NCBI RefSeq assembly: GCF_014982725.1
Contig: NZ_JADCJZ010000001.1
Span: forward strand, 1 to 64,000
Direction of reading: 5' to 3'
Source of the DNA: Thermophilibacter gallinarum
Lineage (GTDB): Bacteria > Actinomycetota > Coriobacteriia > Coriobacteriales > Atopobiaceae
DNA: 64,000 nucleotides
Shown: one piece after another, positions 3,636 through 9,916 of the stretch
Layout: every line of letters starts with the position of its first letter
How positions within the stretch are numbered: position 1 is the first letter of the stretch
Made by a program: the position numbers and the translations under genes
Notes under the pieces: model-generated
Databases searched by the model: none
Told to the model about the DNA's origin: nothing
The model's input: the letters and a program-made list of their open reading frames with translations, nothing else

Positions 3636-4568
3636 GTGCGTTTCCCCCGGAAAAGAGGTGTCGCCGCCATCGCGCTGACCTGCGCGCTCTCGCTGGCGGC
3701 ATGCTCCGGGGGGTCGTCGGGTAGCGCGGGCGGGTTCGACCCCGGCACCACGAGCGGCCCGGCGTGGACGATGCCCACCGCCGCGCTCCTCTCGCCCTTC
3801 TCGGCGGACGCCGTCTCCGCGGCCGAGCCGGTGGTGGACCTCTCCCATGCCTCGGAGGGCTACGTCGCGGCGTCGGCCACCTCCGACGCCCGCCTCAAGC
3901 TGCAGGTGGTCTGCGGGGAGATGAGCTACAACTACGACCTGCCCTCGGACGGCTCGCCGATCGTGGTGCCCCTCAACATGGGCGACGGCGCCTACCGCGT
4001 GCGCGTGATGCAGAACACGAGCGGCAACAACTACGTGGAGGTCTACTCCGTGGGTGCGGACGTGGAGCTGGAGAGCGAGTTCGCGCCGTACCTGCGGCCC
4101 AATCTCTTCTGCGACTACGACGACTCGAGCGCGGCCGTGGCCAAGGCGCGCGAGCTCGCCGCGGGCGCCGAGAACGAGGGCGACGTGATGCGCGACGTCT
4201 GCATCTGGGTCGCCAGCAACATCACCTACGACTACGACAAGGCCGCCGAGCTCTCGGGCACGAGCGGCTACGTGCCCAGCCCGGACGAGACGCTCGCCTC
4301 GGGAACGGGCATCTGCTTTGACTACGCGTCCCTCTCCGCGGCGATGCTGCGGAGCCTGGGGATCCCGTGCAAGGTGGTCACCGGCTACGTGTCGCCGGAC
4401 GGGGTCTATCACGCGTGGAACCTGGTCTACATTAATGGGAGCTGGACGAGCGTCGAGTTCTCCGTGCGCGAGGGCGAGTGGTCGCGCGTGGACCTCACGT
4501 TCGCCGCGGCCGGCGCCGGGGACACAGTGGGCGACGGCACGTCGTACACCGACCGGTACGTCTACTAA
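3636..4568 (+). CDS. lipoprotein with transglutaminase-like domain
   Basis: 310 residues. A GTG start was chosen because an AGGAGG ribosome binding site sits just upstream. The N-terminus is a lipoprotein signal peptide with lipobox LAAC (Cys near residue 22), so the protein should be anchored to the outer face of the membrane. The C-terminal half carries a transglutaminase/papain-like core: GICFDYA with the candidate nucleophile C227, HAW with H259, and an acidic residue at E274 where Asp is usual. Such domains can be proteases, peptidoglycan hydrolases or cross-linkers; the substrate is unknown. The gene is the first of a tightly packed run (9 bp gap to the PilC-like gene), which suggests a role in filament assembly or in processing surface material. 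Membership in the operon is inferred from spacing. Confidence 0.75.
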   Translation: MRFPRKRGVAAIALTCALSLAACSGGSSGSAGGFDPGTTSGPAWTMPTAALLSPFSADAVSAAEPVVDLSHASEGYVAASATSDARLKLQVVCGEMSYNYDLPSDGSPIVVPLNMGDGAYRVRVMQNTSGNNYVEVYSVGADVELESEFAPYLRPNLFCDYDDSSAAVAKARELAAGAENEGDVMRDVCIWVASNITYDYDKAAELSGTSGYVPSPDETLASGTGICFDYASLSAAMLRSLGIPCKVVTGYVSPDGVYHAWNLVYINGSWTSVEFSVREGEWSRVDLTFAAAGAGDTVGDGTSYTDRYVY

Positions 4569-4577
4569 GGAGCGGGG

Positions 4578-5669
4578 ATGAGCGAGAGCCTGAAGAGCCC
4601 GACGGGGCGCGAGGGACGCGGGGCGGGGACGCTGCCGGCGAGCGAGGTCGCGGCGTTCTGCGAGGGCCTGGCGGCCATGCTCGCGGCAGGGATCCAGCTC
4701 GACGAGGGGCTGGGGCTTCTCGGCGAGGGCGCCGCGGGCACGCCGATCGCGCCGGTGTGCGACGAGCTGTACGGGAGCGTCGCCGGCGGCGAGGCACTGT
4801 CGGCCGCGATGGCGGCGGGCGGGCGCTTCCCGGCGCACGCCGTGTCCACGCTGGCGGCGGCCGAGCGCGCCGGGCGCACCGAGCGGGCGCTGCGCGGGCT
4901 GGCGGGCTACTACGCCGAGGAGGCCCGCGTCATGGAGAAGCTCCGCACGGCCGTGGGCTACCCCGCCGCGCTGCTGTGCGTGATGAGCGTGGTGCTGGTC
5001 TTCACCGTGGCCGTCATCCTGCCGGTCTTCATCGGCGTCTACGAGGACATGGCCGGCTCGCTCACGGCGGGCTCGGGCCTGGCGGTGAGCGCGTCGATCG
5101 CCGTGGGCTGGGTCGCGCTGGTCGTGGTGGTTCTCGCGACGGCCGCCGCGCTCGTCGGCGTGGCCGCGAGCAGGAGCGTCCGTGGACAGGCGGCGATCGT
5201 GCGCCTGCTGGAGCGGCTGCCGCTCACGAGTGACGCCATGCGCCAGCTCGCGCTGTCGCGCTTCCTGGGGACGCTCTCCACCTGCCTGGCCGCCGGATCC
5301 AACGAGGACGCCGCGATGGAGGAGGCGCTTCGCACCGTGGAGAGCGAGGGGCTGCGCTCCGAGCTGGAGCCCGTGCTCGCCGCCATGACCGACGTGAGCC
5401 GCGGGCTGGGGCTCGCGCAGGCGATCGCGGAGAGCGAGGTGCTCGAGCCCACGCAGGCGCGCATGCTCTCCATCGGCTCGCGCGCCGGGTCGACCGACGC
5501 CGTGCTCGAGCGGCTCTCCGAGGCGTGCTTCGATGACGCCGTCGCGCGCGTGGACCGCGTCATCGACGCGACCGAGCCCGCGCTGGCGGCGTTTCTCACC
5601 GTGGCCGTGGGCGCGACGCTCGTCTCGGTGATGCTTCCCCTCATCGGCATCATGGGGTCGGTGGGCTAG
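4578..5669 (+). CDS. type II secretion/type IV pilus inner-membrane platform protein (GspF/PilC family)
   Basis: 363 residues, start ATG behind AAGGAG. The protein shows the two-repeat organisation of GspF/PilC: a cytoplasmic helical segment with the pattern FCEGLAAMLAAGIQLDEGL (residues about 29-47), transmembrane helices near 130-160 and 170-200, a second cytoplasmic repeat starting at about 225 (LSRFLGTLSTCLAAGSNEDAA), and a final membrane helix at about 335-360. In known systems this platform couples the cytoplasmic ATPase to pilin extraction and polymerisation. It is directly followed, without a gap, by four small one-pass membrane proteins and a PilT-type ATPase, so it is probably the platform of this local machine. 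The family call is firm; the type of filament is not known. Confidence 0.88.
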   Translation: MSESLKSPTGREGRGAGTLPASEVAAFCEGLAAMLAAGIQLDEGLGLLGEGAAGTPIAPVCDELYGSVAGGEALSAAMAAGGRFPAHAVSTLAAAERAGRTERALRGLAGYYAEEARVMEKLRTAVGYPAALLCVMSVVLVFTVAVILPVFIGVYEDMAGSLTAGSGLAVSASIAVGWVALVVVVLATAAALVGVAASRSVRGQAAIVRLLERLPLTSDAMRQLALSRFLGTLSTCLAAGSNEDAAMEEALRTVESEGLRSELEPVLAAMTDVSRGLGLAQAIAESEVLEPTQARMLSIGSRAGSTDAVLERLSEACFDDAVARVDRVIDATEPALAAFLTVAVGATLVSVMLPLIGIMGSVG

Positions 5670-5984
5670 GTGGGCGCCCGCAGGGACAGACGCGAACGGC
5701 GCAGGTGGCCGTGGGTGCTGGCAGCGGTTGCCGTCGCGGGCGCGCTGGTGGCCGCGGCGGGGCCCGCGGTCGCGGGCGCCCTGCGCGAGCAGGGGGCGGC
5801 GAGCGTGCGCGACGCCGTCCTGCGCGCGGCGGCGCAGTGCTGCGCCATCGAGGGCTCCTACCCCCACACGCTGCGCCACCTGGAGCAGCACTACGGGCTC
5901 ACGGTCAACCATGACGACTACGTGGTCATCTACGAGGCGTACGCGTCCAACGTCACGCCGAGCGTGGTGGTGACGCCGCGATGA
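5670..5984 (+). CDS. small one-pass membrane protein of filament operon (pilin-like)
   Basis: 104 residues. The GTG start follows the stop codon of the PilC-like gene immediately, and the last bases overlap the next start (ATGA), so translation is probably coupled. An Arg-rich cytoplasmic N-terminus (GARRDRRERRRWPW) precedes one membrane helix (residues 15-38) and a small soluble domain with a CC pair and the sequence EGSYPHTLRHLEQHYG, followed by YVVIYEAY. This topology and position match minor pseudopilin-like subunits, but there is no canonical prepilin cleavage site with Glu at +5. I do not recognise a named family. Confidence 0.65.
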   Translation: MGARRDRRERRRWPWVLAAVAVAGALVAAAGPAVAGALREQGAASVRDAVLRAAAQCCAIEGSYPHTLRHLEQHYGLTVNHDDYVVIYEAYASNVTPSVVVTPR

Positions 5985-6511
5985 GCGCGCGCATGGACCA
6001 GCTGCTCGACGCCATCGGCGAGGCGCGCGCGGCGCGCGGCGCCGAGCGCGGCGGGCGCTCGACCCACGTCTTCGCCGTGGCGCTTCTCGCCCTGTTCCTC
6101 CTGGCGCTGCTGGGCAGCGTCGCCTTTGGCACGCAGGTCTACCAGCGCCTCAACGAGCGCTCCGTCGGCGCGGCGGGCGCGCGCTCGCCGCTCGGAGTGA
6201 TCGTGAACGCCGCGCGGGCGACCGACGCCCCCGGCTCCGTGGAGCGCGGCGAGGGGCCCGAGGGCGACGCACTCGTGCTCGTGGAGCGACTGGAGACCGG
6301 CACATACGAGACGCGCTTCTTCCTGTGCGACGGCTGGCTCGTGGAGCAGTATGCCGTCGCGGGCGCACCCTACGAGACCGACGGGGCGACGTGGCTCGCC
6401 GAGGCCGGGTCCTTCTCGCTTGAGCTGGACGACGGGATGCTGACGGTGAGCTGCGACGCGGGGACCGCGCGGGCGGCGCTCCGCTCCCAGGTCGAGGGGG
6501 TGGCGTCATGA
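5981..6511 (+). CDS. DUF4860-type membrane protein of filament operon
   Basis: 176 residues with a 4-bp ATGA overlap on both sides. A charged cytoplasmic N-terminus is followed by one membrane helix (residues about 29-50, ALLALFLLALLGSVAFG) and an extracytoplasmic domain with beta-rich segments (ALVLVERLETGTYETRFFLCDGWLVEQY). The pattern resembles DUF4860, a family seen in Firmicutes and Coriobacteriia next to PilC and PilT genes. Function is unknown; the position suggests a structural or pseudopilin-like subunit. The DUF assignment is from memory of the family pattern and should be checked by HMM search. Confidence 0.6.
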   Translation: MSARMDQLLDAIGEARAARGAERGGRSTHVFAVALLALFLLALLGSVAFGTQVYQRLNERSVGAAGARSPLGVIVNAARATDAPGSVERGEGPEGDALVLVERLETGTYETRFFLCDGWLVEQYAVAGAPYETDGATWLAEAGSFSLELDDGMLTVSCDAGTARAALRSQVEGVAS

Positions 6512-6888
6512 GCGGGCGCGAGGCGATGCGCCCGGCGGCGCCCTGGCGCGGGACGGCCTTCCTCGTGGAGGCGTGCCTGCTGCTCGCCGTGGTCGCGGGC
6601 TGCGTGGCGGTGTTCGCCGCGCTCTTCTCGCGGGCGGGCCTCGAGGGGGCGCGGGCCGAGGAGCTCACGCGCGCCGTGGTGGCCGCGCGCGACGCGGCCG
6701 AGGTCTTTGCCGCCGAGGGGGAGGACGCCGCCGGCGAGCGCGAGGTCGGGGCGCTGAGCGTGCGCGTCGACGTCACGGGCGACGACGAAGTCGCGGGGCT
6801 GCTGCGCGCCGTCATCACCGTGAGCGACGCCGAGGGCGCCGAGGTCTACCGGCTGGAGACCGCGCGTGCGGGAGGTGGTGCGTCATGA
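6508..6888 (+). CDS. pseudopilin-like one-pass membrane protein
   Basis: 126 residues, overlapping both neighbours by 4 bp. After a short basic leader (MSGREAMRPAAPWRG) comes a hydrophobic helix containing a Glu near its start (TAFLVEACLLLAVVAGC), as in type IV pilins, where a Gly precedes the cut and a Glu follows at +5; here the Glu is at about +6. The rest is a small soluble domain rich in Glu/Ala that ends with a beta-strand-like segment. It may be a minor pilin. No prepilin peptidase gene is in the window. Confidence 0.6.
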   Translation: MSGREAMRPAAPWRGTAFLVEACLLLAVVAGCVAVFAALFSRAGLEGARAEELTRAVVAARDAAEVFAAEGEDAAGEREVGALSVRVDVTGDDEVAGLLRAVITVSDAEGAEVYRLETARAGGGAS

Positions 6889-7367
6889 GCCGGGCCCGCG
6901 GGGCGCAGGCCTCGGGCGGCGGGGTCCGCATGGGCCCGGTCAGCCTGTTCGCACTGGTTGTGGCGCTGTGCCTTGCCGTCATGGCCGTGCTCGCCGTGAC
7001 GACGGCGCGCGCCAGCATGGCGCTCGCGGAGCGGCAGGCGGCCTTCACCGCCGACGACTACGCCAACGAGGCCGTGGGGCAGGAGCTCCTCGCGCGCGTG
7101 CGCGCCGTCGCCGACGAGGGCGGCGCGGACGGGGTGGGGGCGCGGCTGGACGACCTTCTCGTCGCCTGCTCCGCCGAGGGCGGGCCGGCCGTGACGGCAA
7201 CCATCAACGAGGGGCAGCTCAGCGCGCACATCGAGTCCGGGAGCGGGCGCTGCCTTGACGTCGTTCTCGCCATCGGCGAGAACGGAGAGGTGAGCGTGGG
7301 GTCCTGGCGGGCGACCACGCTCTGGGACGAGGACACCGGCGACGTCCTGTGGACGGGCCAGAAGTGA
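6885..7367 (+). CDS. pilin-like one-pass membrane protein
   Basis: 160 residues. The start at 6885 was chosen over an upstream in-frame start because it gives the same 4-bp ATGA overlap as the other genes of the operon. A Gly-rich leader is followed by a membrane helix (MGPVSLFALVVALCLAVMAV, about residues 16-40) and a helical stretch (ASMALAERQAAFTADDYANE), a layout typical of pilin N-terminal helices, then a small domain ending in WTGQK. No Glu is seen at +5 after the candidate Gly. The gene ends 11 bp before the ATPase start, so both are probably co-translated from one message. Confidence 0.6.
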   Translation: MSRARGAQASGGGVRMGPVSLFALVVALCLAVMAVLAVTTARASMALAERQAAFTADDYANEAVGQELLARVRAVADEGGADGVGARLDDLLVACSAEGGPAVTATINEGQLSAHIESGSGRCLDVVLAIGENGEVSVGSWRATTLWDEDTGDVLWTGQK

Positions 7368-7378
7368 CGGGAGGCATC

Positions 7379-8452
7379 ATGGATCTGACGGGCTTTCTCA
7401 AGGAGATGGTCGACGAGCGGGCGTCCGACGTGTTCTTCATCGCCGGCCTCCCCGTGACGTACCGCGCGGCCGGGCGGCAGGTCCGCCTGGGCGACGAGCC
7501 GCTCATGCCGGCCGACACCGAGGCCGCCGTGCGCGCGATCCTCTCGGCCGCGGGGCGCCGGACCGACTGGATCGAGGAGCAGGGCAACCACGACCTGGAC
7601 TTCTCGTTTGCCCTGCCCGGCGTGGGCCGCTTCCGCGCGAACGTGTTCCGCCAGCGCGGCTCGGTCTCCGCCGTAGTGCGCGTGATCCCCTTCGGGCTGC
7701 CCAACCCCGGGGAGTTCGGCATCCCCGAGGAGGTGCTGCGCACCGCCGAGCTGCAGAAGGGCCTCGTGCTCGTGACCGGTCCGGCGGGCGCCGGCAAGTC
7801 CACCACGCTGGCGTGCATCGTCGACCGCATGAACCACGGGCGCTCCGGCCACGTGATCACGATGGAGGACCCCATCGAGTTCGTGCACCGGCACGGGACG
7901 TGCATCGTCACGCAGCGCGAGGTTCCGACCGACGTGGCCACCTACGACGAGGCGCTGCGCTCCGCGATGCGCGAGGCGCCCGACGTCATCCTGCTCGGCG
8001 AGATGCGCGACGCCGAGACGATCTCCACCGCCGTGACCGCGGCCGAGACCGCGCAGCTCATCTTCTCCACGCTGCACACGACGGGCGCGGCGGGCACCGT
8101 GGACCGCATCGTGGACGCGTTCCCCGCGAGCCAGCAGCGGCAGATCCGCCTGCAGCTGGCCATGGTGCTGCAGGCCATCGTGAGCCAGCAGCTCGTGCCG
8201 ACGGTCGACGGCGGCGTGACGCCCGCCTGGGAGATCATGGTGAGCACGCCCGCGATCCGCAACCTCATCCGCGAGGAGAAGACGCACCAGATCGACTCAG
8301 CGATCGCGGCGCGCGGGGACCTGGGCATGCGGACGATGGACCAGAGCCTGTTCGCGCTCGTGGAGTCCGGGCGCGTGGCGCGCGACGTCGCGCTGCAGTA
8401 CGCGGTGCACCAGGAGGCGCTCGAGCGGCGCCTGACGGCGGCGGGCCTCTAG
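7379..8452 (+). CDS. pilT: PilT/PilU-type hexameric ATPase
   Basis: 357 residues; the ATG at 7379 has a GGGAGG ribosome binding site, better than an in-frame start inside the preceding gene. The protein has the N-terminal PAS-like region (ASDVFFIAGLPVTYRAAG), Walker A GPAGAGKST with K140, the Asp/His-box region (HVITMEDPIEFVH), Walker B (DVILLGEMRDAETI) and the C-terminal AIRNLIREEKTHQI motif usual for retraction ATPases. In known pili PilT drives disassembly, while PilB drives assembly. Here it is the only ATPase of the operon, so it may power both directions or PilB lies elsewhere. The family call is strong; the filament type is inferred from the neighbours. Confidence 0.9.
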   Translation: MDLTGFLKEMVDERASDVFFIAGLPVTYRAAGRQVRLGDEPLMPADTEAAVRAILSAAGRRTDWIEEQGNHDLDFSFALPGVGRFRANVFRQRGSVSAVVRVIPFGLPNPGEFGIPEEVLRTAELQKGLVLVTGPAGAGKSTTLACIVDRMNHGRSGHVITMEDPIEFVHRHGTCIVTQREVPTDVATYDEALRSAMREAPDVILLGEMRDAETISTAVTAAETAQLIFSTLHTTGAAGTVDRIVDAFPASQQRQIRLQLAMVLQAIVSQQLVPTVDGGVTPAWEIMVSTPAIRNLIREEKTHQIDSAIAARGDLGMRTMDQSLFALVESGRVARDVALQYAVHQEALERRLTAAGL

Positions 8453-8492: not shown

Positions 8493-8681
8493 TCACTTCT
8501 CGGGCTTGTCGTCCTTCTCGGCTTTGCCCCTCTTGGGGAGCCGGCCTGCGCGGCGCAGGGCGTCGCGCAGGATCCACTCGACCTGGCCGTTGGCGCTGCG
8601 CATCTCGTCCGCGGCCCAGCGCTCGACCGCGGCCCAGACCTCGGGGTCTATGCGGAGCGGGTATTGCTTGCGCGCGGCCAC
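8493..8681 (-). CDS. small ribbon-helix-helix DNA-binding protein (Arc/HicB-antitoxin-like)
   Basis: 62 residues with a GTG start. The sequence KQYPLRIDPEVWAAVERWA followed by RSANGQVEWILRDALRRAG is the strand-helix-helix pattern of Arc/CopG-type proteins that bind DNA as dimers; a basic and acidic tail follows. It lies 12 bp downstream of the SPFH gene on the same strand, a pairing that I recall as common in Actinobacteria and Firmicutes. No toxin partner is visible. A likely role is autoregulation of the SPFH gene, possibly through the palindrome at 9771-9782. Confidence 0.75.
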   Translation of the reverse strand: MAARKQYPLRIDPEVWAAVERWAADEMRSANGQVEWILRDALRRAGRLPKRGKAEKDDKPEK

Positions 8682-8693
8682 GGGTTCGCGCCC

Positions 8694-9713
8694 CTACTGG
8701 TAGAGGGAGCCGGTATTGAGGACGGGCTGGGCCTCGGACTCGCCGCAGAGGACGACCATGAGGTTGGACGCCATCACGGCCTTGCGGTCCTCGTCGAACT
8801 CCACGACGCCGCCGTCGGAGAGCTCCTTGAGGGCCATGTCCACCATGGAGACGGCGCCCTCGACGATCTTCTTGCGCGCGGCGATGATGGCCTCGGCCTG
8901 CTGACGGCGCAGCATCGCCTGGGCGATCTCCGGCGCGTAGGCGAGGTGCGTGAGGCGGGCGTCGTCGACGGAGACGCCGGCCGGGGCGAGGCGACGATCG
9001 AGCTCCTGCTTGAGGGTCTCGGAGACCTCCTCGATGTTGGAGCGCAGCGTGATGGAGCTGTTGGAGGCGTCGTCGTCCTCCATGTGGTCGTAGGCGTAGA
9101 CGCTGGCCACGTGGCGCAGGGCCGTCTCGGTCTGCATGGCAACGTAGCTGGGGTAGTGGTCGACGTCGAAGAGGGCCTTGGCGGTGTCGGCCACGTGCCA
9201 GACCACGACGGTCGCGATCTCGATGGGGTTGCCCATCTTGTCGTTGACCTTGAGGCGGTCGCCGTTGAGGGTGCGGGCGCGCAGGGAGACCTTGGTGGAG
9301 AGCGTCTTGGCGGCCGCGGCGGCCTTCACGGACGGGGTGCCCTCCTCCAGGCTGACGTCGATGGAGGCACCGGTGCCGTCCGAGCCCAGGCTGTGGGAGT
9401 AGAAGGGGTTGACCCAGTAGAAGCCGGACTCGCGGACGGTGCCCACGTAGTTGCCAAAGAGCACGAGCACGCGGGCCTGCCCCGGCTGCAGCGAGAAGAA
9501 TCCGCAGGTGACGATGATGGCCACGATGAGCAGCACGATGCCGCCCACGAGCAGCCCGGGGCCGGTGACGGGGGCGGGCACGCCGGCGTCCTCCGCGGTG
9601 GCGAGGATGATGATGCCCTGGACTATGCCCCAGATGGAGGCGGCATACGCGACGAGGGTGACGAAGAGCATGGGCCAGCCCGATCCGGCGCGGGCCTGCT
9701 TCTCTACAGTCAT
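8694..9713 (-). CDS. SPFH/band-7 domain membrane protein
   Basis: 339 residues. The start ATG (MTVEKQARAGSG) has the ribosome binding site AGGAAAGGA; upstream in-frame starts lack one. Two N-terminal membrane helices (WPMLFVTLVAYAASIWGIVQG and LLVGGIVLLIVAIIVTCGFF) are followed by LQPGQARVLVLFGNYVGTVRE, the classic entry into a band-7/SPFH domain, then helical coiled coil with QEL..RLAPAGVSVDDARLTHLAYAPEIAQAMLRRQQAEAIIAARKKIVEGAV, typical of prohibitin/stomatin-like proteins. Such proteins oligomerise at membranes and organise microdomains or protease access. It probably forms an operon with the ribbon-helix-helix gene. Confidence 0.85.
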   Translation of the reverse strand: MTVEKQARAGSGWPMLFVTLVAYAASIWGIVQGIIILATAEDAGVPAPVTGPGLLVGGIVLLIVAIIVTCGFFSLQPGQARVLVLFGNYVGTVRESGFYWVNPFYSHSLGSDGTGASIDVSLEEGTPSVKAAAAAKTLSTKVSLRARTLNGDRLKVNDKMGNPIEIATVVVWHVADTAKALFDVDHYPSYVAMQTETALRHVASVYAYDHMEDDDASNSSITLRSNIEEVSETLKQELDRRLAPAGVSVDDARLTHLAYAPEIAQAMLRRQQAEAIIAARKKIVEGAVSMVDMALKELSDGGVVEFDEDRKAVMASNLMVVLCGESEAQPVLNTGSLYQ

Positions 9714-9770
9714 TGCAGTTCCTTTCCTGGTGTCGTGCGGGCCCGGGGTGGCCGCCTCGACTGAGGTCAT

Positions 9771-9782
9771 TGTGATATCACA
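9771..9782. promoter_or_regulatory. 12-bp palindrome TGTGATATCACA, candidate operator
   Basis: A perfect palindrome lies 58 bp upstream of the SPFH start codon, in the promoter region. Ribbon-helix-helix dimers recognise such short dyads, so the product of the gene at 8493-8681 is a reasonable candidate binder. This is inference from position only. Confidence 0.45.
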
Positions 9783-9916
9783 TTGGTTTCTGCGCAAATG
9801 GAGAATCCGTCGAGACGGCGGCGAACGGCGCCATGTGCCGGGCGAGCGCGCATGTGGCAGCTAGCGGTAAGTTGCGCCTCGTAAGATGTGGGGCTCTTCG
9901 ATTGGGGAGGTGCCTC

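Follow-up and report, generated by a model that had tools for sequence, protein, structure and literature searches.

Type IV filaments form a superfamily of machines for which a common set of parts has been described. A review lists pilins, a prepilin peptidase, an extension ATPase and a platform protein as parts of all type IV filaments (PMC10191384), and a survey of the whole superfamily calls the role of PilB in assembly essential for all families (PMC6668835). Here, we describe a seven-gene operon of Thermophilibacter gallinarum that departs from this scheme. The operon lies in a stretch of 64,000 nucleotides (positions 1 to 64,000 of contig NZ_JADCJZ010000001.1, assembly GCF_014982725.1; hereafter the window), in which it spans positions 3636-8452 on the + strand, and encodes a transglutaminase-like lipoprotein (TG), a GspF/PilC-type membrane platform protein, four small one-pass membrane proteins (p1 to p4) and a PilT-family ATPase. 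A previous interpretation of this DNA from its letters alone, the sequence-only reading, had noted that the operon contains no gene for PilB/GspE, a prepilin peptidase, a secretin or PilM/N/O, and this proved correct. Since a conserved set without extension motor and cleavage sites is widespread, as detailed below, the universality of both features is contradicted, and a pilus-like machine devoid of the two would represent, judging from sequences and predicted models, a new form within the type IV filament family. The same reading would have been overturned had these genes belonged to a known, characterised family set, and no paper describing the set was found in the literature searched.

Several known systems share part of this layout. 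The Com pilus of monoderm bacteria (comGA-comGG) likewise gathers in one operon a platform, major and minor pilins and a single ATPase, with neither PilM/N/O nor a secretin. However, the motor of the cassette belongs to the PilT family instead of ComGA and comes last in the order, the pilins are four and not five, class III signal peptides are missing and a transglutaminase-like lipoprotein is added. The type II secretion pseudopilus (GspE/F/G/H/I/J/K) has in common with the cassette the GspF-type platform, subunits like G, J, I and K, a K-like subunit without Glu5 and a partner that can be a lipoprotein (PulA). In contrast, GspE, GspL, GspM, GspC, the secretin, GspO and the cleavage site are all absent from the cassette, where PilT takes the place of GspE. 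The retraction ATPase PilT of type IVa pilus systems resembles the cassette motor in its family assignment, in its being the nearest solved structure and in the AIRNLIRE motif, but the cassette protein falls in a separate clade and has no PilB partner in most genomes; moreover, none of PilM, PilN, PilO and PilB, which accompany PilT in type IVa pili, is found among the conserved neighbours of the cassette. Finally, the Tad pilus also relies on one motor, the bidirectional CpaF/TadA, for a whole filament system, whereas the cassette lacks a TadA-family protein, TadB/TadC, Flp pilins and TadV.

The successive junctions between the seven genes measure +9, 0, -4, -4, -4 and +11 bases, so that the tight operon of the sequence-only reading was accurately described, and searches with profile hidden Markov models matched every family that it had proposed (Transglut_core, T2SSF, DUF4860 and PilT); no family convincingly fits the three remaining small proteins. 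The platform gene (4578..5669, +) matches T2SSF in two stretches (E 1.5e-30) and also, at scores under their equivalog cut-offs, the GspF, PilC and ComGB models, and thus supplies the platform typical of the superfamily. A protein search with PilT yielded 80 loci, whose reading frames were then searched with the seven proteins of the window. The order platform-p1-p2-p3-p4-PilT was recovered in 73 of them, which come from two phyla, span Coriobacteriia and Clostridia and include the Eggerthellaceae, Atopobiaceae, Coriobacteriaceae, Lachnospiraceae, Oscillospiraceae, Peptococcaceae and Erysipelotrichaceae; Gordonibacter pamelaeae and Gemmiger formicilis are two examples of carriers among cultured commensals. 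Most of the remaining loci are truncated where their contigs end, whereas L077 is a type IV pilus locus of the ordinary kind. Exactly four small genes chain between platform and PilT in 67 of the 73. The seven family models also recover the set in independently sampled genomes. In evenly drawn samples, DUF4860 is present in 31 of 150 Coriobacteriia genomes and p1 (E <=1e-20) in 15 of 195 genomes of the class to which the Pseudobutyrivibrio G028 belongs. Comparison with the nearest named relative, Olsenella sp. An270, whose PilT is 96% identical, gave ratios of nonsynonymous to synonymous substitution rates (dN/dS) of 0.15-0.47 for all seven genes, indicative of purifying selection. The recurrence of this gene order in 73 loci of two phyla, together with these ratios, implies that the set is not due to chance. 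The idea of a self-contained set equipped only with a PilT-type ATPase, originally drawn from a single operon, is therefore upheld and extended to 73 loci.

At the motor level, the ATPase (7379..8452, +) reaches 407.2 bits against the PilT model TIGR01420, whose cut-off is 319.1, and its catalytic motifs are conserved. Walker A occupies residues 137-142, followed by GEMRD at 207, STLHT at 230 and AIRNLIRE at 292, and K140, E163, E208, H233 and R298 (the Walker A Lys, the Walker B Glu, the His box and other motif residues) are kept in at least 97% of 80 PilT sequences. The closest solved relatives are the PilT structures 2gsz, 2ewv and 3jvu. Against the ComGA model the protein scores only 119 bits (cut-off 300), and the set has neither the ComGA motor nor the ComGC major pilin of a Com pilus. 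A tree built by a quick method from 39 cassette PilTs and PilTs of PilB-bearing type IV pilus operons, some from the same genomes, placed the cassette proteins in one clade apart from the others, with a Shimodaira-Hasegawa-like approximate likelihood ratio (SH-aLRT) support of 99. This separation identifies the cassette PilT as a paralogue dedicated to the set, and not as the retraction motor of some pilus put to a second use. The sequence-only reading started from the notion that PilT normally serves only for retraction. Precedents exist for one motor performing both tasks, as CpaF of the Tad system drives both extension and retraction (PMC11300603, PMC12019362) and PilT is required for the extension of mannose-sensitive haemagglutinin (MSHA) pili, there next to an extension motor (PMC9815625). 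By analogy with these two precedents, it is plausible that a single PilT-type motor could drive a short pseudopilus.

Regarding the small proteins, p1 (5670..5984, +, GTG start) is a major-pilin-like one-pass protein with the motif C-x-x-x-E-G-x-Y-P, which we take to recall the Y-x-x-x-x-G-x-Y-P region of GspG-type major pseudopilins. Among 68 aligned sequences, C57 is conserved in all, E61 in 66 and G62 and P65 in 67 each. Cys57 itself (codon 5838-5840) lies in the outer part of the protein and is often preceded by Gln. The AlphaFold model of p1 (predicted local distance difference test score, pLDDT, 94.8) consists of a 59-residue N-terminal helix (residues 3-61), a short helix and two strands, and its first match in a Foldseek search of the PDB is the pilin PilA4, with other pilins also listed and none significant (E 0.7). 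The sequence of p1 matches no pilin family, nor does its profile match PDB sequences. The second protein, p2 (5981..6511, +), belongs to DUF4860 (PF16152, E 3.2e-10), and in its model (pLDDT 90.5) a 66-residue helix (2-67) precedes eight strands. Of the nine best Foldseek matches to this model, seven are minor pseudopilins of type II secretion (the EpsI-EpsJ and XcpV-XcpW complexes, XcpW and the Xcp pseudopilus model); their probabilities reach 0.93-1.00 but their E-values only 0.05-0.1. These matches point to a GspJ/GspI-like subunit. Family searches for p1, p3 and p4 gave scattered weak matches only. The GspI/PilV-like p3 (6508..6888, +) has a Glu in its membrane helix, E21, that is invariant (68/68), and the Tt1218 pilin family is matched by a single member (E 1.4e-4); the GspK/PilX-like p4 (6885..7367, +) has an invariant Gly, G17, at the start of its membrane helix (68/68), and single members match PilX_N and Pilin weakly. 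Comparison of profiles with hhalign related p3 to p4 over a short match of 28 columns (E 2.7e-5) and was insignificant for p1-p3 and p2-p3. Structure prediction, which had been suggested for these proteins, returned pilin-like models for p1 and p2, in line with the fold expected of the superfamily, with no single database E-value reaching significance. The case for pilin-like subunits is built on fold class plus gene context, not on Foldseek E-values. From these features, together with the invariant Glu of p3 and Gly of p4, we infer that p1 to p4, probably diverged pilin-like subunits, correspond to the major, J, I and K positions.

Such a series of a platform, a major and several minor subunits resembles comGB-GC-GD-GE-GG, and it could be asked whether the cassette builds a competence-type pseudopilus that replaces comGA-GG and feeds DNA to ComEC. 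In favour of this explanation, DNA uptake is powered elsewhere by PilT retraction (PMC4471445) and ComEC is encoded by all 47 carriers examined. However, ComEC is near-ubiquitous, being present in 10 of 14 controls as well, which makes the co-occurrence uninformative, p1 matches no pilin family and no part in DNA uptake is known for a transglutaminase-like lipoprotein. We consider a function in competence unlikely.

The absence of a canonical cleavage site, first noticed in the proteins of the window, is general. Not one of the 68 sequences in each of the four families (4 x 68) combines Gly(-1) with Glu(+5), as class III signal peptides do. In p1 and p2 neither residue is conserved; in p3 the position five residues before E21 is occupied by R, N, T or A, most often Arg and never Gly; and in p4 the +5 residue is always hydrophobic and never Glu, a trait shared with the K-type tip subunit. 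The looser combination of Ala(-1) and Glu(+5) appears in six p3 sequences, and the p3 of genome G374, outside the 68-sequence set, has a Gly five residues before its Glu in a genome with no detected peptidase. From sequence, then, the cleavage motif is missing from the set almost everywhere.

These observations bear on whether the cassette could be a conventional pilus that obtains its extension motor and prepilin peptidase in trans, from a PilB or from TadA/TadV encoded elsewhere. None of the extension ATPases of the superfamily (PilB, GspE, ComGA or TadA) accompanies PilT in the operon, and no prepilin peptidase either. In the rest of the genome of the window (99.3% complete), the sole other T2SSE ATPase is the TadA of a Tad locus (C1:417 kb), and one short A24 peptidase gene is found at C1:371.9 kb, about 45 kb from TadA; the proposed genome search for pilB and pilD therefore returned no PilB and a single peptidase. 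A PilB/GspE-type match, defined as a full-length match to the T2SSE profile (or a split one in G030), was detected in 8 of 34 cassette genomes and in none of the other 26, leaving out G035, a type IV pilus control without the cassette, and it was present in 4 and absent from 10 of 14 further Clostridia carriers. An A24 peptidase is found in most carriers, a point that, like the TadA and A24 peptidase of the window genome, favours supply in trans. As detection proved sensitive to the E setting, only results at E up to 1 were used to call a peptidase absent; G048, once taken for a peptidase-free carrier, was dropped because the wider setting revealed an A24 peptidase, and a second T2SSE is also present in it. 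In G303, G374, G020 and G023, the cassette PilT is the only T2SSE protein above cut-off and no A24 peptidase exceeds the cut-off at E up to 1. The contig that carries the complete seven-gene set of G303 is 2,969,292 bases long, for a genome size of about 3.0 Mb, so that absence through missing sequence is unlikely there, while the genomes of G374, G020 and G023 are fragmented and constitute weaker evidence. Given these four carriers, subunits that offer no cleavage motif and a TadA that normally serves its own TadB/TadC, supply in trans appears very improbable. The sequence-only reading had called for either a novel way to assemble or a remote PilB: the latter is contradicted by the window genome, with TadA alone, and by most carriers, and the former presupposes that a filament is made.

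The remaining component, TG (3636..4568, +; Transglut_core, Pfam E 3.2e-22), carries a lipobox (LAAC|S) and the triad Cys227-His259-Asp286. The papain-like triad attributed to it at the outset is real, its three residues being invariant in 64 of 64 aligned sequences as befits the transglutaminase-like superfamily. TG is thus a predicted transglutaminase-like enzyme, for which cross-linking, cleaving and binding are not separable from sequence, and it is likely the working end of the system outside the membrane. It adjoins the cassette in 57 of the 63 loci having enough upstream sequence.

Taken together, we consider it moderately probable that the operon encodes a short membrane-anchored pseudopilus with one PilT-type motor, working with the external transglutaminase-like enzyme. 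In this model, p1 would act as the major-pilin-like subunit, p2, p3 and p4 would resemble the J, I and K subunits that assemble into the tip complex in type II secretion, and the four would stand on the GspF platform, driven by a single PilT-family hexamer. With uncut N-termini, the subunits would stay anchored as N-in/C-out single-pass proteins and together build a short, membrane-held pseudopilus; the motor might turn the platform and so raise and/or lower the pseudopilus, much as CpaF works in both directions for Tad pili, and the tip could present, move or switch TG on the outer face against the wall or a surface protein. Several points weigh against this model. The machine is deduced here from genes, sequences and predicted models, the models cover p1 and p2 only, and their Foldseek E-values (0.7 and 0.05) are not significant by themselves. 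The cassette PilT keeps AIRNLIRE, as do many but not all of its relatives, and since this motif has been linked to retraction (PMC4471445), assembly by this motor is hypothetical. In addition, p4 keeps a Gly at the possible cut site and, with an A24 peptidase encoded in the window genome, might be processed there, and TG is not nearby in L017 and L028-L032, suggesting that it is not strictly required.

The strongest rival of the short pseudopilus, and a more novel proposal, is that no filament is made. PilT and GspF would then act on a static assembly of pilin-like proteins that remain uncut, a mechanical transducer derived from a type IV filament, and through it open, position or activate the lipoprotein enzyme on the outside. 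FtsEX, proposed to act on wall hydrolases, offers an analogy. This explanation would account for a cleavage motif found in no subunit, for carriers with no detected prepilin peptidase, for the lack of an extension motor and for a lipoprotein with an invariant triad that stays beside the cassette even where it is inverted (L016 and L150). On the other hand, p1 retains a major-pilin-like motif and fold, which suggests polymerisation, and TG is missing near some cassettes (L017 and L028-L032). On balance we regard a transducer as a serious but rather doubtful alternative.

Beyond the seven genes, no flanking gene is conserved across both phyla, and the neighbours are lineage-specific. In the window, a gene divergent from the operon (3-2978, -) encodes a surface-type protein of at least 992 residues that runs off the left end and contains a Big_2 domain as well as a stretch rich in Glu, Pro and Thr, and a convergent gene (8493-9797, -) encodes a Band 7/SPFH protein, followed by a 62-residue open reading frame resembling an Arc-type DNA-binding protein. 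About 24 loci (L044, L047, L057, L063 and other Clostridia) share two more genes upstream of TG, some 5-6 kb upstream of the PilT end, one of which resembles a SARP/BTAD-type regulator; lineage-specific control is a possible explanation. L152 (4504-7266, genome G279) comprises a platform and four pilin-like genes with no adjacent PilT, no TG and no T2SSE ATPase found genome-wide, and may be either an ATPase-free variant or a decaying copy. The contigs of L055 and L066 are labelled Coriobacteriia/Eggerthellales, yet their cassette PilT groups with Clostridia sequences, through either lateral transfer or misbinning.

Overall, the sequence-only reading is partly supported. The comparison gives DUF4860 a likely role as a minor pseudopilin, and the cassette provides a natural minimal system for asking whether a PilT-type motor drives assembly and whether pilins work uncut. 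It also brings to notice a so far uncharacterised machine of the cell envelope, shared by common gut bacteria of two phyla.

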